NCBI GenBank assembly: GCA_021809225.1
Contig: JAKBAL010000115.1
Location: 1 to 7,077 of the forward strand
DNA length: 7,077 nucleotides
Source of the DNA: Pseudomonadota bacterium
GTDB lineage: Bacteria; Pseudomonadota; Alphaproteobacteria; UBA9655
Direction: 5' to 3'
The translations under genes were made by a program, and so were the position numbers. A model generated the notes under the pieces. It worked only from the letters and a program-made list of their open reading frames with translations. It was not told the DNA's origin and ran no database searches. Shown here one piece after another: positions 1-7,077 of the stretch. Each line of letters begins with the position of its first letter. The first letter of the stretch is position 1.

Positions 1-59
1 TAAAAAGTAGCATCTTACATTTTGTTATAGATTGTAAGGTAATTTGGTTTTTTAGGGAG

Positions 60-94
60 ACCCCCCAGGGAAAAAAGATAGTTTTAGGGGGGGT
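60..94. repeat. GC inverted repeat (C6/G6 hairpin)
   Basis: ACCCCCC at 60-66 is complementary to GGGGGGT at 88-94, with a 21-nt A/T-rich loop whose A-run and T-run can stack further. No T-tract follows on either strand, so a simple intrinsic terminator is unlikely. The G-run in the right arm is the one whose length differs between the two terminal copies. Confidence 0.45.
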
Positions 95-126
95 GAAAAA
101 AGGGGGGAAATTTAGGGGTTTTAGGG
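82..126 (+). other. G-run cluster with quadruplex potential and TTTTAGGG motifs
   Basis: Four G-runs of 7, 6, 4 and 3 (87-93, 102-107, 115-118, 124-126) are separated by 8, 7 and 5 nt on the plus strand. That fits, or just exceeds, the usual quadruplex spacing. Most runs are preceded by TTTTA or ATTTA, so TTT(T)AGGG recurs at 50-57, 82-89, 111-118, 119-126 and 297-304. The minus strand, which is the coding strand here, is correspondingly C-rich. Confidence 0.45.
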
Positions 127-127
127 C

Positions 128-151
128 TTTGAACCGGTGGTAATAGGAAAT
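128..151. repeat. Iteron copy 1 (24-bp direct repeat)
   Basis: This is a 24-bp perfect match to 195-218, with core GAACCGGTGGTAATAGG. The two copies start 67 bp apart in the same orientation and their flanks differ, so the repeat is a discrete unit. It contains the palindrome ACCGGT. The spacing and the position upstream of the replication gene suggest a binding site for the HUH-RNA polymerase protein. Confidence 0.75.
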
Positions 152-194
152 TAGATTTTAAAGTTGCGAAAAAATGGAGGTAAAATTTTCAGAG

Positions 195-218
195 TTTGAA
201 CCGGTGGTAATAGGAAAT
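195..218. repeat. Iteron copy 2 (24-bp direct repeat)
   Basis: Second perfect copy of the repeat at 128-151, in the same orientation. The sequence after it diverges at once into an A-rich stretch, which sets the right boundary of the repeated unit. Confidence 0.75.
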
Positions 219-317: not shown

Positions 318-1256
318 TTAGTCTCTCTTCTTAGCGATTAGAATGTATCTCCCGAAGATGGAGAAGATTTCCTTTATATTCGTAAAGGCTGATTGCGGAG
401 GCAGTGGTTGTGGTACGATTGGGGTTATAGTTGGAACCGAAGGGCCTGAATAAGTGGAATTAGAAGGGGGTCCAAAAATAAACCGACCAAGAACAAGGGT
501 GAAGGTAAATGTTCCTATCGCAACGGCGCCTAAGCATAGAAGGGGAAACCAACTGTTAGGCGGCGGAACTGATTCAACCATGCGATTTGTTTTGGCTAAA
601 TGGTCCTTCGCGGCGACGGTATCTTTGTCCATTTTTTCGATAGCTTCCCTTTGCTCAGCAATAGGAAAAGAGATGGGGTCACTTAGAGTTTGGGCTAGTT
701 GTTTAGAACGATCCATAACCTCAAAAGCGTCTCTAAGGAAAGGATCTGCATTTTTAAAGGCAGATTCCCTTAGATTTGAGACCCGTTCTAAATATGTTGA
801 GACACTCGAATTATGAGATTTATCTACGGTGTTTTCAAGTAACACTGCTTTAAACTGCTCAATAGAAAAAGGGGCTTTGCCGCCACTAAGGTCAGCAGTC
901 ACAGGATTAGCGGCTAGCTGAGGAGCGGAAGGTAGTTCCTCAACCTTGGTAGAAACTTTGGTAAGGGTTTTGGAGGTTTTGGTAGCCGCTAAATCCCGCG
1001 CGGTTGCGTTTAGGTCAGGTACCCGTAGCGAAAGACCGTTGATTTGTGGTTTGAATGGTTCAAATTGGGAAGAGTTTGCGCTTGGCTCTGTGATAAGAGA
1101 CTTAGGGAGCACGTCCAAAACTTCCGACGTTGTTTGGGTGATCGTAGTTGTACCTGAAGGCCGGGTATTAGAAAAAGAATGATTGTTCGCCCTACTTTTT
1201 GCGATGTCCTCAAGGACCTTTTCCGCGAAGCTGGTAGAGTTATTTTTTCTTCTCAT
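318..1256 (-). CDS. Single-pass membrane protein, unknown function (312 aa)
   Basis: I do not recognise a family. Residues 1-130 are polar, rich in Ser, Thr, Asn and Pro and of low complexity. Residues about 130-230 are charged and probably helical, possibly coiled coil. One strong hydrophobic segment at about 236-262 (starting SWFPLLCLGAVAIG) is followed by a Pro-rich stretch (264-289) and a short basic tail ending AKKRD. There is no N-terminal signal peptide, so the predicted form is a large soluble N-terminal part anchored near the C-terminus. The start lies 16 nt after the stop of the larger membrane protein, and AGAAGGGAAGA just upstream is the only Shine-Dalgarno-like sequence in the window. 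The stop is TAA. Co-transcription and joint action with 1273-2286 are likely. Candidate roles are a virion or attachment protein, a transfer component or a membrane maintenance factor; none can be chosen from sequence. Confidence 0.85.
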   Translation of the reverse strand: MRRKNNSTSFAEKVLEDIAKSRANNHSFSNTRPSGTTTITQTTSEVLDVLPKSLITEPSANSSQFEPFKPQINGLSLRVPDLNATARDLAATKTSKTLTKVSTKVEELPSAPQLAANPVTADLSGGKAPFSIEQFKAVLLENTVDKSHNSSVSTYLERVSNLRESAFKNADPFLRDAFEVMDRSKQLAQTLSDPISFPIAEQREAIEKMDKDTVAAKDHLAKTNRMVESVPPPNSWFPLLCLGAVAIGTFTFTLVLGRFIFGPPSNSTYSGPSVPTITPIVPQPLPPQSAFTNIKEIFSIFGRYILIAKKRD

Positions 1257-1272: not shown

Positions 1273-2286
1273 TTATTCAATGTCCTCAAAATAAGTTTGA
1301 ACGGTGCTAGTGGTAACATTTTCCGCAACCTGTGCGGGGGTAATTCCTTTAGAACAACACGTACAGGTACAGAACCGCAAAGAACGATTATATATACCCA
1401 ATAAAATAGCTTTTGTAACCGCTACTTCTTCACTGCTAAAACCGATGAGATGATGAAGTTGTGCTATGATATCCTGCTGTGCGGTTACCAGCTCTACAAG
1501 TTCATTGTGAGCCGGGACTAGTTTTTCCAGGCAAGTGGTATTTACTTTTAGTATCCCGGACATGTCCGTCACTCTAGCTTCATTCGTGTTAACGTCCTTA
1601 GTCAAGTTGTGCATACTGTTGAAAATTCCTGAGACAGTAAAAGAGTTATAATTCCAGAAAAGATAAAAGCCACCGCCGATAAGTGTACCAGCAATAGCAA
1701 CAGCACCGTAGTGGTTTTGTAAGAAAATAAAGAGAGTAGAAAGGATGTTGCTTAAAGCCCCCCCTTTAGCTGCTTCAGCAGCGGCTAGAGCAGCAGCCTG
1801 TTGTTGTTGTATAAGAGCAAGAAGCCCTGATTGTAGCTCGGAGATGGAAGAGGCTTGGTTTGTAAGCATAAACTTATCTTGCGGGCTTATTAAATTCCCT
1901 ATACCAAGAGAATTTAAAGAGGAGTCGAGAAATTGCATTTTCTCCTCGGGACTATAAGCTCGAAGAAGCTTAAACCCGAATTTAAGAGGAACGTTATCTA
2001 GCCAATTATATTCAAGATAGGCTATCTTTTTGACTAGAAGCAGAGGAAGCGTTGCCACCGTGGTGGTTATAAAGGTTAATATTCGAAGTGGAATATTACC
2101 TATCACAGACTGTAAATCTGAAATCTCCGCGATTTCCGGGGAGAAAATTAGGAATATAAAAACTGGTAAAAGGAGATGAGTAATGGAAATTAAGTGAACT
2201 GGGGGGACGATGGTGTAAGTTCCTATCATTTGCATAAGCCCTAAAGACCCGAAGACAAATAATTTTATTAATATTCGGATTACCAT
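1273..2286 (-). CDS. Multi-pass membrane protein, unknown function (337 aa)
   Basis: I do not recognise a family. Hydrophobic segments lie at about residues 3-25, 33-49 and 66-88, with a fourth at about 191-212 (AIAGTLIGGGFYLFW). An Ala/Gln-rich helical stretch (about 157-176, QQQQAAALAAAEAAKGG) precedes the fourth. Residues about 225-285 are charged with heptad-like hydrophobics and may form a coiled coil. The C-terminus carries a tight cysteine cluster, CTCTCC (306-311), which could bind a metal or form disulfides. The ATG is preceded by the AAATATTA/CTTAAG arrangement also found before the HUH-RNA polymerase gene, and no Shine-Dalgarno is visible, so this is probably the first gene of its unit. 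The stop is TAA and the next gene starts 16 nt on. It could be a channel, a holin-like or envelope protein, or part of a transfer apparatus; sequence alone does not decide. Confidence 0.85.
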   Translation of the reverse strand: MVIRILIKLFVFGSLGLMQMIGTYTIVPPVHLISITHLLLPVFIFLIFSPEIAEISDLQSVIGNIPLRILTFITTTVATLPLLLVKKIAYLEYNWLDNVPLKFGFKLLRAYSPEEKMQFLDSSLNSLGIGNLISPQDKFMLTNQASSISELQSGLLALIQQQQAAALAAAEAAKGGALSNILSTLFIFLQNHYGAVAIAGTLIGGGFYLFWNYNSFTVSGIFNSMHNLTKDVNTNEARVTDMSGILKVNTTCLEKLVPAHNELVELVTAQQDIIAQLHHLIGFSSEEVAVTKAILLGIYNRSLRFCTCTCCSKGITPAQVAENVTTSTVQTYFEDIE

Positions 2287-2289
2287 TTT

Positions 2290-2313
2290 TAATATTTAAA
2301 AAATAGGCTTAAG
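2290..2313 (-). promoter_or_regulatory. Shared upstream element of the membrane-protein unit
   Basis: Read on the minus strand, CTTAAG (2313-2308), 10 nt, then AAATATTA (2297-2290) ends 3 nt before the ATG at 2286. The HUH-RNA polymerase gene has the same two blocks 9 nt apart at 6854-6832. No other gene in the window has both blocks. This fits a short promoter of the kind used by single-subunit RNA polymerases, or a translation-initiation leader. The role is inferred. Confidence 0.45.
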
Positions 2314-2355
2314 GTTTATAGGTAAGTTAGAAGACGAACTAGTCTTCTTAAGCAT
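2296..2355 (-). CDS. Possible 19-codon leader ORF
   Basis: An ATG at 2355 opens a 19-codon frame (starting MLKKTSSSSN) that closes with TAA at 2296, ten bases before the start of the 337-residue membrane protein. It overlaps both the 7-bp inverted repeat at 2329-2348 and the CTTAAG block, so it could be a regulatory leader peptide or pure chance. If the CTTAAG element is the promoter, this frame would not be transcribed as a whole. Support is weak. Confidence 0.12.
   Translation of the reverse strand: MLKKTSSSSNLPINLKPIF
2329..2348. promoter_or_regulatory. 7-bp perfect inverted repeat, operator-like
   Basis: AGAAGAC (2329-2335) and GTCTTCT (2342-2348) are perfect complements around a 6-nt spacer. 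They sit about 45 bp upstream of the 337-residue membrane protein. Size and position fit a dimeric regulator's operator or a small RNA hairpin. No repressor gene is visible in the window. Confidence 0.35.
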
Positions 2356-2356
2356 T

Positions 2357-2464
2357 ATGGTTTGTCGACTTATTCCAGAAGAAGTCTTGGTGATAGAGAA
2401 GCGAGTCATTTTTCTAGAAATTAAAGATTTTAAAGCGGCGGGGCGGGAAAAAGAAGCTTTTTAA
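2357..2464 (+). CDS. Possible 35-aa small ORF
   Basis: An ATG on the plus strand opens 35 codons ending in TAA. The predicted peptide (MVCRLIPEEVLVIEKR...) alternates charged and aliphatic residues and looks protein-like, but it has no visible ribosome-binding site, no homologue I recognise, and would be the only plus-strand gene. The end of the frame overlaps a GC-rich block (2435-2447). It is a candidate only. Confidence 0.15.
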   Translation: MVCRLIPEEVLVIEKRVIFLEIKDFKAAGREKEAF

Positions 2465-2500
2465 AGGTTAGAGAAGAAACTTAACTTAGGAGACAATAGA

Positions 2501-2549
2501 ATAAAATAAGGGGTTTTGCTACGGACTGGAGCAAAACCCCTTATTTTAT
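2501..2549. terminator. 20-bp perfect inverted repeat (hairpin A)
   Basis: The left arm at 2501-2520 (ATAAAATAAGGGGTTTTGCT) is perfectly complementary to 2530-2549, around a 9-nt loop ACGGACTGG. The arm ends are A/T-rich on both strands, so the hairpin could terminate transcription in either direction: the replication-recombinase unit from one side and any plus-strand RNA from the other. A perfect cruciform of this size is also a classic place for an HUH protein to nick. The 12-mer AAAACCCCTTAT of its right arm recurs at 3016-3027. Confidence 0.6.
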
Positions 2550-2590
2550 CTTAGTTTTCGGTAAGTACCCATGTAGGTTTTTTTCAAGGT

Positions 2591-2629
2591 GCTTTTAATA
2601 GGGGATTCCCCAAACCCCCTATTAAAAGC
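2591..2629. repeat. 14-bp perfect inverted repeat (hairpin B)
   Basis: GCTTTTAATAGGGG (2591-2604) pairs perfectly with 2616-2629 around an 11-nt loop. It lies 41 bp from hairpin A. Two unrelated perfect hairpins side by side suggest a double terminator or a structured origin. No long T-tract follows directly on either strand. Confidence 0.6.
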
Positions 2630-2671
2630 AATAGTAAGAGAACCCTTTTTCTCTTCTATCTTTAAAAAACC

Positions 2672-2692
2672 CTTAAAAACTTTGAATAAATA
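2672..2692 (+). promoter_or_regulatory. Weak promoter-like match for a plus-strand RNA
   Basis: CTTAAA at 2672-2677 and AATAAATA at 2685-2692 roughly repeat the CTTAAG plus AAATATTA pair seen upstream of two genes, with 7 nt between them, but on the plus strand. Transcription from here would enter the foldable domain at 2706. The match is imperfect and the region is AT-rich, so chance is a serious alternative. Confidence 0.15.
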
Positions 2693-2705
2693 GGTAGAGA
2701 ACAAG

Positions 2706-3034
2706 CCCCTAGGCTAAAACGAAGCCATAGCTCCATCCCCCTTAGTTCAGAGAGGGCGAGCAACGAGGTACTTTTGGAAGGCACCTCTCAGTACGGGTTC
2801 GAGATCTCCACCTATATTCAGCCCCCGAAGGAGGTATAAAGCTAGCTAAGCTCCTTTCTCCTACGAGTTCCGAGTCTCTGCGGTATTGAAACGCACATAT
2901 ACCCGGCATGTTTCTTTAGAGTCGGTCTCCCATCTTCTGGATAGGCCTCAAGGTAGAGGACCGACTGTCTATTTTTCTGTCTCATAAGACGGGGGCCAAG
3001 GGGAAAGAACGTGAGAAAACCCCTTATATTTTTT
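2706..3034 (+). ncRNA. Candidate structured RNA, about 300 nt
   Basis: This gene-free, less AT-rich stretch is dense in complementary segments. CCCCT at 2706-2710 and GGCT at 2712-2715 pair with 2999-3003 and 2994-2997 (one A/A mismatch, one G/T pair), closing the whole domain end to end. Inside are 2730-2733/2758-2761 with 2739-2743/2752-2756, 2765-2769/2783-2787, 2828-2833/2851-2856, GGTAT/ATACC at 2882-2886/2899-2903, AGTCGGTC/GACCGACT at 2920-2927/2959-2966, and a 7-bp stem with a CATA loop at 2976-2993. Several G/T pairs and the T-tract after 3025 favour the plus strand, but one stem (2824-2837) gives a cTTCGg tetraloop only on the minus strand, so the strand is uncertain. I found no match to group I or II introns, RNase P RNA, tmRNA, 5S rRNA or a hammerhead. 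It may be an origin transcript, a ribozyme or an untranslated leader. Confidence 0.4.
2998..3034 (+). terminator. Hairpin with T-tract, plus strand
   Basis: AAGGGG (2998-3003) pairs with CCCCTT (3020-3025) around a 16-nt loop and is followed by ATATTTTTTT, the form of an intrinsic terminator. Single-subunit RNA polymerases such as that of T7 stop at this kind of signal. The left arm is the same segment that closes the large domain by pairing with 2706-2710, so the two folds exclude each other. Confidence 0.45.
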
Positions 3035-3092
3035 AGGGTGGATTTTCGGCTATGAAGAATATGGCAAAAAGAGGACCTGGGAGGAAGAGAAG

Positions 3093-3106
3093 ACGTTTTG
3101 TAAGAT
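3093..3106. repeat. Recombinase-linked repeat ACGTTTTGTAAGAT, copy 1
   Basis: This is the first of three identical 14-bp copies within 213 bp, all in the same orientation; the others are at 3159-3172 and 3292-3305. The shared 10-mer TTTTGTAAGA also occurs at 1715-1724 inside the larger membrane-protein gene. Placement around the end of the tyrosine recombinase gene suggests accessory binding sites for that enzyme. Confidence 0.5.
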
Positions 3107-3149
3107 TTTCAAGCGAATTTCGGTTTCTCTTCTTATATATGCTACCAGA

Positions 3150-3172
3150 ATCTTACACACGTTTTGTAAGAT
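3150..3172. other. dif-like inverted repeat, candidate recombination core site
   Basis: ATCTTACA (3150-3157) and TGTAAGAT (3165-3172) are perfect 8-bp complements with a 7-nt centre CACGTTT. This is the architecture of a tyrosine-recombinase core site: two inverted arms around a 6-8 bp crossover region. It lies 20 bp past the stop of the only recombinase gene. A looser version (ATCTTACA, 13 nt, TGTAAGGT) occurs at 12-40 in the control region. On a circular plasmid such a site would resolve multimers or allow integration into a matching host site. Confidence 0.5.
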
Positions 3173-3191
3173 AGTTTGAGCGCTTTTTAAT

Positions 3192-3881
3192 TCACTTATT
3201 GGCTTTATTACGGTTCTTTTTATTCTCCTTTTTTAGTTTATCATCAATATTTTTAGGTTTTTCCTTTAGCGCAGTTTTGATTCGATGATTTACGTTTTGT
3301 AAGATCTGTTTCTTCATTCTAAATTCATATAGAGAATCCGCCATCTCGCTAAGTTTCTCGCGGGAAATATGATATCTAGAGTACCTTAACGTGGTGTTGA
3401 TACTGGAATGTCCGATAAACTGACGTACGTTCTCTGGATTTTGAAATTCAAGGAGATCGGTTACCGCCCCTATACGGAAAGAGTGGGAGCGGAGAAGACG
3501 CTTACCGTTTTTTCTCACCTGATATTCCTTTAGAATAGAATTTATCTTAGAATTAAAATGCGGACGTGAATACTGTTTTCCCTCGTGAGAAGCTATAAAG
3601 CCCTCCTCTAAAAATTCAAAATCCTTGAAATCGTCTTTTGCTTCTTTAGGGACGGCCAAAGTTCTTACACGTTGGGTTTTAGATTCTAAAATTTCGAGAT
3701 AATCCTCGGTATAAAGTTTGCGGATATCTTCCTTGGTGATAAATCTGGTTTCATCTATACGAAGCCCAAACCAGAATAAGAGGGAAAGAATAATACGAAT
3801 TTTCAGATTAGGAGCCATAGGCAAAAGCTCCAAATAATCCTCTTTGGTTATAGCATTTCTGTAGAATTTTTTTACTTTCAT
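3192..3881 (-). CDS. Minimal tyrosine recombinase (229 aa)
   Basis: A site-specific recombinase that would break and rejoin DNA through a 3'-phosphotyrosine link. The full catalytic set is visible: Arg41 in FGLRIDE, Lys68 in the strand pair ESKTQRVRTL, His133 and Arg136 in HSFRIG, His158 in IGHSSINTTLRY, and the nucleophile Tyr167. Spacing from GHSS to Tyr matches XerC-type enzymes. At 229 residues it is shorter than Xer proteins (about 300) because the N-terminal DNA-clamping domain is essentially missing: box I starts only 35 residues in. A Lys-rich tail (from about 205) may give extra DNA contact. It starts 10 nt after the stop of the HUH-RNA polymerase gene, so the two are probably co-transcribed. 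No Shine-Dalgarno is seen, and the stop is TGA. Likely work is multimer resolution or integration at the 3150-3172 site next to its 3' end. Confidence 0.9.
   Translation of the reverse strand: MKVKKFYRNAITKEDYLELLPMAPNLKIRIILSLLFWFGLRIDETRFITKEDIRKLYTEDYLEILESKTQRVRTLAVPKEAKDDFKDFEFLEEGFIASHEGKQYSRPHFNSKINSILKEYQVRKNGKRLLRSHSFRIGAVTDLLEFQNPENVRQFIGHSSINTTLRYSRYHISREKLSEMADSLYEFRMKKQILQNVNHRIKTALKEKPKNIDDKLKKENKKNRNKANK
3292..3305. repeat. Recombinase-linked repeat, copy 3 (inside the recombinase gene)
   Basis: This is an identical 14-bp copy of the motif at 3093-3106 and 3159-3172, here within the coding sequence near the C-terminus, where it is read as ILQNV. A related TCTTACACGTT is found further into the gene at 3663-3673. 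Part of the match could reflect coding constraint. Confidence 0.4.
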
Positions 3882-3891
3882 TTTATTTTTT

Positions 3892-6831
3892 TCAGGAATA
3901 CATATTAAAAGCCTCTATAACTGAGAAATAATCAAAAGGCTGATGATTATTATCTTTTCTTATCTCGTTGATAAGATTATCCACCACCAATCGGTTGGCT
4001 GCTACATCTTTGCGTATACGATTTGAAAGCGATTCCTCTCTCTCCTTTTCAGTTTTAGGAAGTTGACGTTCAACCGAATCCGCATAATTTAAAAGTTGCG
4101 TATCCAATAAATCTAGCATATAAGCGAATAATCGAGGCGTGCTGAAAACGTTATAATTTATTTTTCTTAATTGCTGATGAATAAAATTCATATCCCCAGT
4201 AGCAGCTAAAACGCAGTCATGGACGGCGAAGAAGGGTACTTCGTTTGCATTCTTTTTCATAGAGATTGCGAAAAGCCCGATAATAGCGGCGTCGAAGGAA
4301 TGAATAAAATCGGGCGGAAGGGAAAGGATCAATTTCTTTTTATCCAGGAGATTGGTTAGCTCCATAAATGTAATCGATTTGTTTACATGCTTGAACCGTG
4401 GGGTTTTAGATTTTGTATCCTGTTGTTTAAGCTTTATTTGAAACCGTTTTCTTTTACGTTGTGGGTAGCATAATTCTATTCTTAATCCTAGAGGGGTGGT
4501 CCAAACAATCTTCTGATCGTACTTAGCGTAAATTTGAGCGTAATTTTTCAACATTTCCAAGAAGAGAAAAATTTTGCGTTTCTTTACATCTTCGATGATG
4601 CTGTCAGATAGCATAAAAACAAGTTTAACGTTAAAATACCTTTCAAATTCAGTAGATATGATATATTTTAAATTATTTTGAAAAGAATACGCGGTGAGGC
4701 CATAAGCTCCTTTCATTAGATACTCTTTGAATATCGTTTTCAAGAAGTCAGAGCGAACGGAATCAGGCATATTATCTAGGATTTTTTTAATCTCGGTATT
4801 CTCGCAATTCTGATAATATTCGTTACCGATCTCACCATAAAAGCTAAGCGGTTTTCCGTTAACACTAGCGGCGTTAAGGTTTAGGAAAAATTTATAACGA
4901 CTGTCCTCTAAGAGAAGAGCGATTATCTGGTTACCGGAAGAGGTAGCATCAACGGAAATAAGGAAATTAGAAAGGTAGTTACCCGCGTTTTCTTGACCAT
5001 AAATTTCTAGGTAATTTTGGTATTTTTTCCATTCCGAAGCAACGTTATAAAATTCAAGATGATTCGCGCACGATCCAAGAGGAGAAAAGAAATTTCCTCG
5101 ATCAAACCTCCGAAGATTGCCTTGAAGGAAAGCGTCTCGGTCGAAGAAAAAGACTCTTTCCGAGAAAGACATTTTATCTTTGCTATAAGCCTTTGTGGCG
5201 TGAAATTTAAACCAATCCAAATTAAATGGACGATAATCAAACGAACGGAGAAGGGATCGGATAAATTTATTGGTAACTGGGCTGAGGTCTGAATTAGCAT
5301 AGAATCTCCCTCTAAAATCAATTTTATAAGGGAAATAAAAGCCGTCTCCTGGTAAAAGATAAAGACGAAAAACTTCAAGTAATTTTTCAATCCTCTCGAA
5401 TTCTATTAACGCGGATCGATCGGAAAGATATCTCAAATATTCAGAAGCAACTTGGTGATCTTTTATTACTTTGATAGTTCCGTTGGAAAGATATCTGCAA
5501 CTTCTCTTAAGATAAGTTTCAAGCGAAAATTCCGTTCCATTGTCTCGTTTAGAATAGAACTTTCTATACGCGTCTAATAATTGTTGTGTTGATTTTTTTA
5601 GATTATTCTCCAAATAATCTTTGTATTCTGAACGCATTTTATCATAAACTTCCCAATCTAAGAGAAACTTAGAAGATTGTAGTTTATTAACAGCGTCGAT
5701 TAGATCATCTTTTCTTTTTTCTAAAATTACCTTAGCATCAGGAGTATCGGTTAAAGGGAAAAGATGGTGGGTATCATTTAATAGAAATCCTCCGGAGAAA
5801 TTACTTCTCAAATCCAGTTCATCTCGAGTCCAGTCGTTAGGCTTGCAAAGCATAGGGAGAGAACCAAAGACGAAACCCTCCTCTACAAGCTGACGCGATA
5901 ATTTACCTAAATCAACGTGGAGATTAAAGCGCTGAGTAATGTACTCCTTGCCTTCCAAGCTGGAATAGGGAATGTACTCTTCCTCAACTAGGTCTCCCAG
6001 GGAATTTACGAAGAGACTTACCAAAACGAAACCAATCTTTAAACCGTCTCTTTCCATGTTCTCATCGAAATCCCTCTGCGTTCTGTATTTTCGTTTGGTC
6101 CCGAGACTGTAAACTTGAAAGGCTATAACGCTAAGGAATTTTTTCCACTTATACTCTACATGCTGGTACTTAAGGAAGATAATCGCTATAACTTTGAAGG
6201 CGAGCCGCTTGTCGATACTACGAAAATATTCGATATAAAATCGATCAATAGACTCGCGTTTATCCTCGAAATTTCTATAGTAATTTGCCTCGAACTTGCG
6301 AATATTCTCCTCCGTTGCGAAATAGTTGAAAAGGAGTTTATAGGCAGCGGAATCTTTTTCCTTAGCGATTTCCTCTTCTAATTTCTCGCAGGACTTATTT
6401 AGCGTGTCTTCTTCGAGAAGCTTCTGCGCTTCTCTATGAAGAAGAAGCTCAAGATTCAGACTGCTTCCGTACTCACTAAAATCTTGGAGAATATAATTTA
6501 TCGCACCAGCTGAATCAATTTCCTTGACGTTAGTTCCAGCCTCCAAATCCTCGTTTACAATGTTATTCCAGATAACAGAAATCTCGGACTTATCCATTTC
6601 CTTGTCGATGAGGATATGGAAATGAGGGATACCGGTTTGAGTAAGCTCCTTAACGTAAAAATAGGAAATCCCGTTACTAGTTAGGGTTTCAGTAAAAAGT
6701 TGAATGTGTCCAATTCGGTATTGTTTTGCCTCCCTGTAGGTGAGGGTGATAAATAATTTCCAAGCTTGTTGCCTTAAAATTTTCTTAAGTATAGGTAATT
6801 TCTTGTTATTTTTACGATTTTCAAGATTCAT
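3892..6831 (-). CDS. HUH endonuclease fused to single-subunit RNA polymerase (979 aa)
   Basis: Two enzymes in one chain. Residues about 25-120 carry HUH rolling-circle motifs: motif 1 FITLTY (27-32), motif 2 GIPHFHILID with His70 and His72 as metal ligands, and motif 3 AINYILQD with Tyr113 as the likely nicking residue. Residues 121-240 are a charged helical linker. The rest is a T7/mitochondrial-type RNA polymerase: LPMLCKPNDWT (325-335), AVNKLQ (380-385), FYFPYKIDFRGRFY (498-511), motif A SVDATSSGNQ with Asp628, motif B Lys698-x3-Lys702-x7-Tyr710 (the first Lys is Arg in T7), IVWTTPLG (775-782), LPPDFIHSFD, and motif C AVHDC with His871 and Asp872. Both catalytic Asp residues are present, so it should be active. 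I chose ATG at 6831; a GTG at 6843 would add four residues but overlaps the shared upstream element. The stop is TGA, 10 nt before the recombinase. Predicted role: nick the origin, transcribe the plasmid and perhaps prime synthesis. No DNA polymerase is encoded. Confidence 0.9.
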   Translation of the reverse strand: MNLENRKNNKKLPILKKILRQQAWKLFITLTYREAKQYRIGHIQLFTETLTSNGISYFYVKELTQTGIPHFHILIDKEMDKSEISVIWNNIVNEDLEAGTNVKEIDSAGAINYILQDFSEYGSSLNLELLLHREAQKLLEEDTLNKSCEKLEEEIAKEKDSAAYKLLFNYFATEENIRKFEANYYRNFEDKRESIDRFYIEYFRSIDKRLAFKVIAIIFLKYQHVEYKWKKFLSVIAFQVYSLGTKRKYRTQRDFDENMERDGLKIGFVLVSLFVNSLGDLVEEEYIPYSSLEGKEYITQRFNLHVDLGKLSRQLVEEGFVFGSLPMLCKPNDWTRDELDLRSNFSGGFLLNDTHHLFPLTDTPDAKVILEKRKDDLIDAVNKLQSSKFLLDWEVYDKMRSEYKDYLENNLKKSTQQLLDAYRKFYSKRDNGTEFSLETYLKRSCRYLSNGTIKVIKDHQVASEYLRYLSDRSALIEFERIEKLLEVFRLYLLPGDGFYFPYKIDFRGRFYANSDLSPVTNKFIRSLLRSFDYRPFNLDWFKFHATKAYSKDKMSFSERVFFFDRDAFLQGNLRRFDRGNFFSPLGSCANHLEFYNVASEWKKYQNYLEIYGQENAGNYLSNFLISVDATSSGNQIIALLLEDSRYKFFLNLNAASVNGKPLSFYGEIGNEYYQNCENTEIKKILDNMPDSVRSDFLKTIFKEYLMKGAYGLTAYSFQNNLKYIISTEFERYFNVKLVFMLSDSIIEDVKKRKIFLFLEMLKNYAQIYAKYDQKIVWTTPLGLRIELCYPQRKRKRFQIKLKQQDTKSKTPRFKHVNKSITFMELTNLLDKKKLILSLPPDFIHSFDAAIIGLFAISMKKNANEVPFFAVHDCVLAATGDMNFIHQQLRKINYNVFSTPRLFAYMLDLLDTQLLNYADSVERQLPKTEKEREESLSNRIRKDVAANRLVVDNLINEIRKDNNHQPFDYFSVIEAFNMYS

Positions 6832-6854
6832 TAATATTTCCACAAAAACTTAAG
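6832..6854 (-). promoter_or_regulatory. Shared upstream element of the replication unit
   Basis: On the minus strand, CTTAAG (6854-6849), 9 nt, then AAATATTA (6839-6832) directly abuts the ATG at 6831. This is the same pair as at 2313-2290. GTGGAAA inside the spacer is the nearest thing to a ribosome-binding site. The element is the best candidate for a promoter recognised by the plasmid-encoded polymerase, which would make the gene self-activating. Confidence 0.45.
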
Positions 6855-6887: not shown

Positions 6888-7077
6888 TAAAAAGTAGCAT
6901 CTTACATTTTGTTATAGATTGTAAGGTAATTTGGTTTTTTAGGGAGACCCCCCAGGGAAAAAAGATAGTTTTAGGGGGGGGTGAAAAAAGGGGGGAAATT
7001 TAGGGGTTTTAGGGCTTTGAACCGGTGGTAATAGGAAATTAGATTTTAAAGTTGCGAAAAAATGGAGGTAAAATTTT
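6888..7077. repeat. Right copy of terminal overlap (redundant with 1-189)
   Basis: This is the same sequence as 1-189, ending at the window edge, with one extra G in the homopolymer (6974-6981, eight G). It includes a redundant copy of the first iteron at 7016-7039. Removing it leaves a circle of about 6,887 bp. Confidence 0.9.

Follow-up and report, generated by a model that had tools for sequence, protein, structure and literature searches.

A fusion of an HUH endonuclease domain with a T7-type RNA polymerase on a small, probably plasmid-like replicon

Can a single polypeptide both start the replication of a small replicon and transcribe its genes? The question is raised by a 7,077-nucleotide stretch of DNA (hereafter the window), in which a first-pass annotation read an HUH nicking enzyme and a T7-type RNA polymerase in one frame. 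HUH initiators occur fused to helicases and primases, and to our knowledge none is fused to an RNA polymerase; the annotation's remark that no such fusion had been described agrees with our literature search, which turned up no published HUH-RNA polymerase fusion in the portions of the sources available to it. The features of the window that bear on the question are as follows.

1..189, no strand: first copy of the terminal overlap (circle closure, unit ~6.89 kb)
6888..7077, no strand: second copy of the terminal overlap (189/190 bp, the copies differing by one G in a G run)
318..1256, minus strand: orphan protein, 312 aa, with one hydrophobic segment (239-257)
1273..2286, minus strand: orphan protein, 337 aa, with three hydrophobic segments close to its N-terminus
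3192..3881, minus strand: tyrosine recombinase (phage integrase family), 229 aa (PF00589, E 3.1e-12)
3892..6831, minus strand: HUH endonuclease-single-subunit RNA polymerase fusion gene, 979 aa
6472..6774, minus strand: HUH endonuclease domain, residues ~20-120 (PF23343, hhalign, profile search, model topology, Foldseek)
6055..6471, minus strand: interdomain region, residues ~121-259, mostly helical and poorly modelled (block pLDDT 31-61)
3895..6054, minus strand: T7/POLRMT-type RNA polymerase, residues ~260-979 (Pfam, PHROG, alignment, model)

Because the contig ends overlap, the window most likely represents an entire circular, plasmid-like replicon of ~6.89 kb. It carries four genes, all on one strand. 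The recombinase also matches PHROG 1 (E 1.3e-20), its match to an XerA-like NCBIfam model lying below the cut-off. Searches of Pfam, PHROG and NCBIfam and for relatives assigned neither orphan to a family and yielded no relative of the 312-aa protein and no credible one of the 337-aa protein; a convincing capsid, MCP or Zot-type match was likewise absent for both in Pfam and PHROG (best E 0.085). No DNA polymerase was recognised among the four genes with Pfam, PHROG or NCBIfam, which fits the earlier suggestion that the host supplies this enzyme, and the fusion is the only recognisable replication and transcription protein of the replicon.

Read as an open reading frame, the fusion gene is unbroken over 979 codons from an ATG at 6831 to a TGA at 3892, a GTG at 6843 (12 bases upstream of the ATG) being also a possible start; in 200 mononucleotide shuffles, the longest stop-free stretch averaged 109 codons and reached at most 195. 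Synonymous codon use did not differ between codons 1-240 and the rest of the gene (0.78 of 2000 random splits were at least as different), and GC at third positions was 0.48 in codons 131-260, somewhat above the 0.34-0.39 found elsewhere in the gene. The landmarks named in the first-pass annotation are all in place, namely FITLTY at 27, HFH at 70 and NYILQD at 112 (with Tyr113) for the HUH part, and Asp628, Lys702, Tyr710 and His871/Asp872 for the polymerase.

The N-terminal domain, with motif I (FITLTY) at 27-32, Glu62, His70/His72 and Tyr113, was matched by PF23343 REP_ORF2-G2P (E 7.6e-9, 36.2 bits vs. a cut-off of 27.8), which also matches two fusion relatives, P0017 and P0067, and the protein as a whole by PHROG 3419, 'rolling circle DNA replication initiation' (E 1.2e-4). 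Glu62, His70 and His72 are invariant in all three fusions. Of the YxxK motif, the tyrosine is present in the window and the lysine is replaced by Gln116; the motif reads YLMKD in P0017 and YMFKE, about four residues later, in P0067. The HUH domains aligned with four inovirus/microvirus initiators at 96.9% and E 1.5e-10 (hhalign), and a profile of the three HUH domains ranked those four initiators, chosen beforehand as weak matches of the same domain, first among 547 ORFs from nine loci (E 9.4e-8 to 8.5e-5; next match 1.1). Searching by tblastn with the HUH domain gave weak Microviridae/Inoviridae-type matches (best E 0.01), and 20 Microviridae records stood among the matches listed for P0017, the matched part of the protein not being given.

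In the full-length model, residues 1-139 lay mostly below pLDDT 50, probably because the N-terminal alignment was poor; residues 1-134 were hence modelled separately. This second model, of low confidence (pLDDT 57), has the order b-a-b-b-a-b-a characteristic of HUH domains, with Glu62 on strand 2, His70/72 on strand 3 and Tyr113 in the final helix, ahead of the tail. The annotation's reading would have been refuted by the lack of any HUH match for residues 1-130, but residues 1-134 do match HUH folds by Foldseek: the top PDB match of the model was 2x3g (SIRV1 ORF119, E 4e-4), third and fourth places going to the Rep domains of Vientovirus and wheat dwarf virus, and among the 50 viral models listed, 7 of the 9 with names were replication initiators or replication-associated proteins (best named initiator, E 2.3e-5). 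VIA-align was not used as proof, since unrelated ferredoxin-like folds gave Z values similar to that of the HUH model.

The C-terminal part is a single-subunit RNA polymerase by several measures. PF00940 (RNA_pol) matched the fusion protein at E 1.6e-24 (87 bits vs. a cut-off of 22) and PHROG 414, 'RNA polymerase', at E 4.4e-54; the polymerase model matched yeast Rpo41, human POLRMT and T7 RNA polymerase (E 3e-23 and weaker). The polymerase residues are Asp505, Arg507, Asp628, Lys702, Tyr710, His844, His871 and Asp872, the last six of which are invariant in all 27 polymerases (from 69 proteins) taken into the alignment. Tyr710 and His844 correspond to Tyr639 and His784 of T7, the residues that select for ribose. 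RPOL_N, the RNA polymerase N-terminal domain that carries promoter contacts in T7, gave a weak sub-threshold Pfam match (16.2 bits vs. 30.1).

The same architecture recurs elsewhere. Two database proteins of 1072 and 975 aa, on other contigs and ~25% identical, share the domain order; they are the two, P0017 (contig of 5143 nt) and P0067 (contig of 4345 nt), that contain both Pfam domains in this order among the 67 other proteins found with residues 480-979. In a tree of 42 rows, kept from 153 (69 proteins and 84 loci) at < 45% identity, the three fusion polymerases group together with support of 100/99 on long branches, and when each was left out in turn the remaining two stayed together (SH-aLRT 97-100). 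Because the fusions have end branches of 2.2-3.2 changes per column and an odd composition, we do not rely on where the tree puts them with respect to phage and mitochondrial enzymes, and long-branch attraction could partly account for their grouping. In the 27-polymerase alignment, the fusion polymerase is 16-20% identical to the 24 non-fusion rows.

Single-protein pattern scans of IMG/VR with the fusion, the recombinase, the two orphans, P0017 and P0067 gave no relatives, nor did an IMG/VR scan with an HUH-only alignment. An alignment scan of the same database gave 254 relatives, of which the best 80 included no fusion and no HUH match; over ORFs of at least 60 aa in loci L001-L082, the best HUH match had E 0.78. 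Four polymerase loci from a GTDB genome scan had no HUH match (best E 1.1), and a Peribacillus plasmid, its polymerase annotated in two pieces, had none either. No Ulva name appeared among the matches to residues 480-979, many of which are nameless.

Several noncoding sites could serve the replication and maintenance of such a circle.

2500..2550, no strand: long hairpin (stem ~21 bp, loop 9 nt), a candidate for the nick site or for the origin of the second strand
2590..2630, no strand: second hairpin with 18-nt arms and a 5-nt loop, sharing a CCCC core with the first
3150..3172, no strand: inverted pair ATCTTACA-7 nt-TGTAAGAT, candidate recombination core site beside the recombinase gene
119..218, no strand: two 33-nt copies, 88% identical and 67 bp apart, candidate initiator or promoter sites

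The 33-nt copies lie within the intergenic stretch that precedes the fusion gene, and the first hairpin has no clear T tract behind it. TGTAAGAT occurs six times in the window (five on the circle) against 0.22 expected; the chance figures for this and the CCCC repeats are optimistic because the patterns were picked after being seen, and a variant pattern was near chance (6 vs. 2.1, with 7 of 200 shuffles reaching 6). None of seven Rfam matches attained the gathering score, and bacterial promoter-like (19 vs. 15.1) and terminator-like sites (6 vs. 6.1) were about as frequent in the window as in shuffles.

On this evidence, we think it probable that the window is a plasmid-like circle whose fusion protein combines an HUH initiator with an RNA polymerase, its replication being of the rolling-circle kind and extended by the host, and its tethered polymerase providing transcription. 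The HUH domain would nick one strand at an origin in a noncoding region, for which a hairpin such as that at 2500-2550 is the best candidate, and remain on the 5' end, while a host DNA polymerase would extend the 3' end. The tethered polymerase would then transcribe the plasmid genes from plasmid promoters and may also make the RNA that primes the second strand, much as POLRMT makes RNA primers in mitochondria; resolution of multimers or integration of the circle would fall to the tyrosine recombinase. The recurrence of the fusion in two other, diverged contigs suggests an element that relies on one protein to initiate both its replication and the expression of its genes.

As to the host, we lean slightly towards an organelle (mitochondrion or plastid) of a protist, algae included. 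A bacterial plasmid or ssDNA-phage-like element is a somewhat less probable reading, compatible with the mechanism just described, and the two orphans, with their hydrophobic segments, could then act in extrusion or assembly. It draws on the Microviridae/Inoviridae type of the HUH domain, on the nearest rows to the polymerase by tree path (viral-contig sequences and a Xanthomonas genome locus) and on a Shine-Dalgarno-like AGAAGGGAAG before the ATG of the 312-aa gene; however, Shine-Dalgarno sequences are weak or absent, by eye, in the other three genes, neither orphan has a capsid or Zot-type family match, the 80 IMG/VR loci examined of 254 and the four GTDB relatives include no fusion, and INPHARED phages and PLSDB plasmids offered no place covering 80% of the query.

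Less likely still, the HUH domain might be only a DNA-binding or tethering module that confers promoter specificity or plasmid retention, with replication started by transcript priming or recombination. The glutamine in place of the YxxK lysine, the displaced tyrosine of P0067 and the weakness of the RPOL_N match agree with this, as does a published mitochondrial plasmid, likewise circular, whose RNA polymerase has 769 aa and for which the available portion of the text names no initiator (PMC11528492). Nevertheless, both histidines, the glutamate and a tyrosine within Yxx[KQ][DE] are kept in all three proteins at ~25% overall identity, as expected if catalysis is selected. It is very improbable that the products of the polymerase half are DNA or mixed primers instead of transcripts, which would turn the protein into a self-sufficient replicase. 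In favour of this, no DNA polymerase gene was recognised, and T7-type RNA polymerases share a fold with A-family DNA polymerases; against it, the invariance of Tyr710 and His844 favours the use of rNTPs. An artefact of assembly or annotation, such as two genes joined in error, can all but be dismissed: the window is a single contig, but the domain order is identical on two other, diverged contigs, and neither a stop nor a shift in codon use marks the junction.

If the preferred reading of a nicking, tethered polymerase is true, the fusion unites in one molecule the initiation of replication, transcription and perhaps priming as well, possibly with a polymerase covalently tied to its own template, and a fused initiator/RNA polymerase could explain how small circles with an RNA polymerase gene only persist. 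HUH-helicase fusions are familiar from CRESS Reps, relaxases and Helitrons, and the window resembles them in having the HUH domain at the N-terminus, joined to a second nucleic-acid enzyme, which here, unlike there, is an RNA polymerase. With the REP_ORF2/G2P initiators of Microviridae and Inoviridae it shares motif I, HxH, the tyrosine motif and the fold order, whereas those are separate proteins (258-301 aa in the four compared) that lack a polymerase and have lysine where the window has glutamine. Catalytic residues and polymerase fold are those of T7-type phage RNA polymerases and mitochondrial POLRMT/Rpo41, from which the fusion differs by the HUH domain in front and a separate deep tree branch.

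Among circular mitochondrial plasmids, pLPM of Leucomyxa plasmidifera encodes a divergent T7-type RNA polymerase, as the window does, and no DNA polymerase, but it is larger (> 15 kb, with 29 ORFs of at least 100 codons) and its polymerase is shorter (769 aa); 'HUH' and 'rolling' do not occur in the accessible part of the text (PMC11528492). By their description, the nearest published analogues appear to be the rpo-bearing circular mitochondrial plasmids of Ulva (pUme, 5.36 kb; pUmu1, 4.1 kb; pUmu2, 11.6 kb), which encode one or more phage-type RNA polymerases with Rpo proteins of 945-962 aa, pUme combining rpo with an orphan ORF (PMC9389341). The account available to us lists no DNA polymerase gene, describes no replication mechanism and, unlike what is found in the window, mentions no N-terminal domain, replication protein or recombinase ('N-terminal' and 'HUH' both have 0 occurrences in it) (PMC9389341). 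We tentatively raise the possibility, which we rate as rather doubtful, of a class of autonomous replicons that depend on the host for DNA elongation only, a single polypeptide nicking the origin, remaining bound to the DNA end and, as RNA polymerase, both transcribing the genes and priming the second strand, and to which the longer Ulva-type Rpo, its HUH domain unrecognised, may belong. Like the Ulva plasmids as described in that account, the window is most likely a small circle that carries rpo and in which no DNA polymerase is recognised, and its polymerase protein, at 979 aa, is of comparable length.

Both halves of the 979-residue fusion score above the Pfam cut-off, with 30-94 matching REP_ORF2-G2P and 541-927 matching RNA_pol (numbered in a 983-residue frame; subtracting 4 gives the numbering from the ATG start), and the RNA polymerase family PHROG 414 spans 256-918. 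The motifs and residue landmarks by which the first-pass annotation had recognized the two domains proved exact in position when the frame was re-checked. The domain join brings no shift in synonymous codon use, although third-position GC is raised in codons 131-260.

A total of 5.8 billion proteins were searched with the whole fusion, residues 1-140, and residues 480-979 as separate queries. The whole fusion matched itself and one fish mitochondrial polymerase, residues 1-140 had no match in this collection besides the fusion itself, and residues 480-979 retrieved 68 proteins, itself included. Both domains are present in two of the 67 others, as borne out by a separate Pfam scan: P0017 (1072 aa, on a 5143-nt contig), which matches replication-initiation PHROGs 3584 (E 2.3e-10) and 3419 (E 6e-7), and P0067 (975 aa, on a 4345-nt contig, the longest of 2), which weakly matches PHROG 3419 (E 0.027). 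The database cluster of the window protein has 9 member sequences and one contig to its name. Because scoring for the whole-fusion and 480-979 queries covered the approximately 8000 candidates with the most shared words, further relatives may exist. Only four relatives were found in the genome collection, among them T7-type enzymes on contigs of an uncultured bacterium (L083:8001-9983) and a Gastranaerophilales MAG (L084:8001-9860). Separately, the annotation of an 11.4-kb Peribacillus plasmid divides a T7-type RNA polymerase between two neighbouring ORFs and part of a hypothetical protein (L001:7528-9489).

Motifs, profiles, and fold together firmly assign the N-terminus to the HUH endonucleases, as a predicted activity. 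The fusion, P0017, and P0067 have FxTLT, HxH, and Yxx[KQ][DE] in common; in a MAFFT alignment, Tyr113 of the fusion is aligned with the Tyr of P0017 and unaligned with that of P0067, which sits about four residues later. Profile comparison of the HUH domains with four initiators, two from inoviruses and two from microviruses, gave 96.9% (E 1.5e-10) over 79 columns, a match that extends past HxH and stops short of the Tyr. When the three-domain profile was run against the 547 ORFs found at nine loci, the same four initiators came out on top (E from 9.4e-8 to 8.5e-5, against 1.1 for the ORF that followed), a ranking that is a sensitivity check and no independent find, because they were chosen as weak matches of the window's HUH domain. 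Run against PDB sequences, the three-row profile returned nothing significant, the best entry being the Rep protein 1l2m (E 0.28). The AlphaFold2 model of residues 1-134 (three sequences, pLDDT 57) runs strand 24-31, helix 40-52, strand 57-63, strand 69-76, helix 81-95, strand 99-104, and helix 107-120. Its top Foldseek match is the HUH Rep SIRV1 ORF119 (E 4e-4), followed by a PII protein, Vientovirus Rep, and wheat dwarf virus Rep. Matches at E 0.001 or better comprised 123 viral models; among the 50 of these that were listed, nine carry names, which in seven cases denote a replication initiator or replication-associated protein; the remaining two are an uncharacterised protein and a parvovirus nonstructural protein. 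In VIA-align, ferredoxin-like folds unrelated to HUH reach almost equal scores.

In the polymerase half, Asp505, Arg507, Asp628, Lys702, Tyr710, His844, His871, and Asp872 are invariant across an alignment of 27 polymerases; Asp628, Lys702, Tyr710, His844, and His871/Asp872 correspond to T7 Asp537, Lys631, Tyr639, His784, and His811/Asp812. Over the greater part of residues 370-979 the model has good confidence (mean per block generally 70-96, dipping to 44-53 near 431-460, 571-590, and 801-820), and it matches the T7 enzyme and the yeast and human mitochondrial enzymes. The three fusions cluster together in a 42-row, 538-column tree (bootstrap 100, SH-aLRT 99), outside the phage-type and mitochondrial rows, a grouping and placement that are suggestive only, because the fusion branches are very long and their composition is odd.

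The fusion gene is the first of four in a row:

6831-3892, minus strand, fusion gene (first)
3881-3192, minus strand, tyrosine recombinase gene (second, after the fusion)
2287-3191, 905 bp, noncoding stretch between the recombinase and 337-aa genes
2286-1273, minus strand, gene for a 337-aa protein (third)
1256-318, minus strand, gene for a 312-aa protein (fourth)

The fusion and recombinase genes stop at UGA and the other two at UAA, and Trp is UGG; the standard genetic code therefore fits. A cysteine cluster, FCTCTCCSKG, lies in the C-terminal part of the 337-aa protein (1345-1374). The first 189 bases recur at 6888-7077, where a G run is longer by one G, and with its ends repeated in this way the molecule is most simply read as a circle of about 6.89 kb; the alternative is a linear molecule with direct terminal repeats of ~190 bp. 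The spacer upstream of the fusion gene has four closely spaced G runs on its plus strand (82-128), and the two terminal copies are unequal by one base in run length.

The 905-bp stretch could be the site of an RNA or an origin. It is strongly structured, folding on the transcribed strand more stably than shuffles (z -5.4, 20 shuffles), and it contains two strong hairpins, neither with a clear T tract. A compact part of ~340 nt at 2690-3030 gave z -2.9 on the minus strand and -1.2 on the plus strand. Nothing in the window attained an Rfam gathering score, and a tRNA search of it found none. Sites resembling AAAACCCCTTAT with at most two mismatches number 10 in the window vs 2.1 expected (one being the terminal-overlap copy), and there are 6 copies of TGTAAGAT (5 when counted on the circle) vs 0.22. 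An inverted TGTAAGAT pair with 7-nt spacing, at 3150-3172, looks like a tyrosine-recombinase core. All of these motifs are post hoc, picked after inspection.

Beyond the gene anatomy, we infer every step of our preferred scheme, in which the HUH domain would nick at a hairpin origin, a host DNA polymerase would carry out elongation, the tethered RNA polymerase would transcribe and possibly also prime the second strand, and the tyrosine recombinase would resolve or integrate.

No HUH-RNA polymerase fusion was found among the open-licence papers listed, going by the openings of their abstracts, and absence there is weak evidence. Foreign sequences in Ulva plastid genomes include ORFs like tyrosine recombinase, ligase, and primase (PMC10151680), and a circular plasmid that encodes a divergent RNA polymerase but no DNA polymerase is reported, with the host enzyme as its presumed DNA polymerase (PMC11528492). 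Circular rpo-bearing mitochondrial plasmids of Ulva, termed a new class, encode full-length Rpo of 945-962 aa, and pUme also has an orphan ORF; the passages covered here are silent on any N-terminal domain and on how the plasmids replicate (PMC9389341). In its length and gene content, the window resembles this class.
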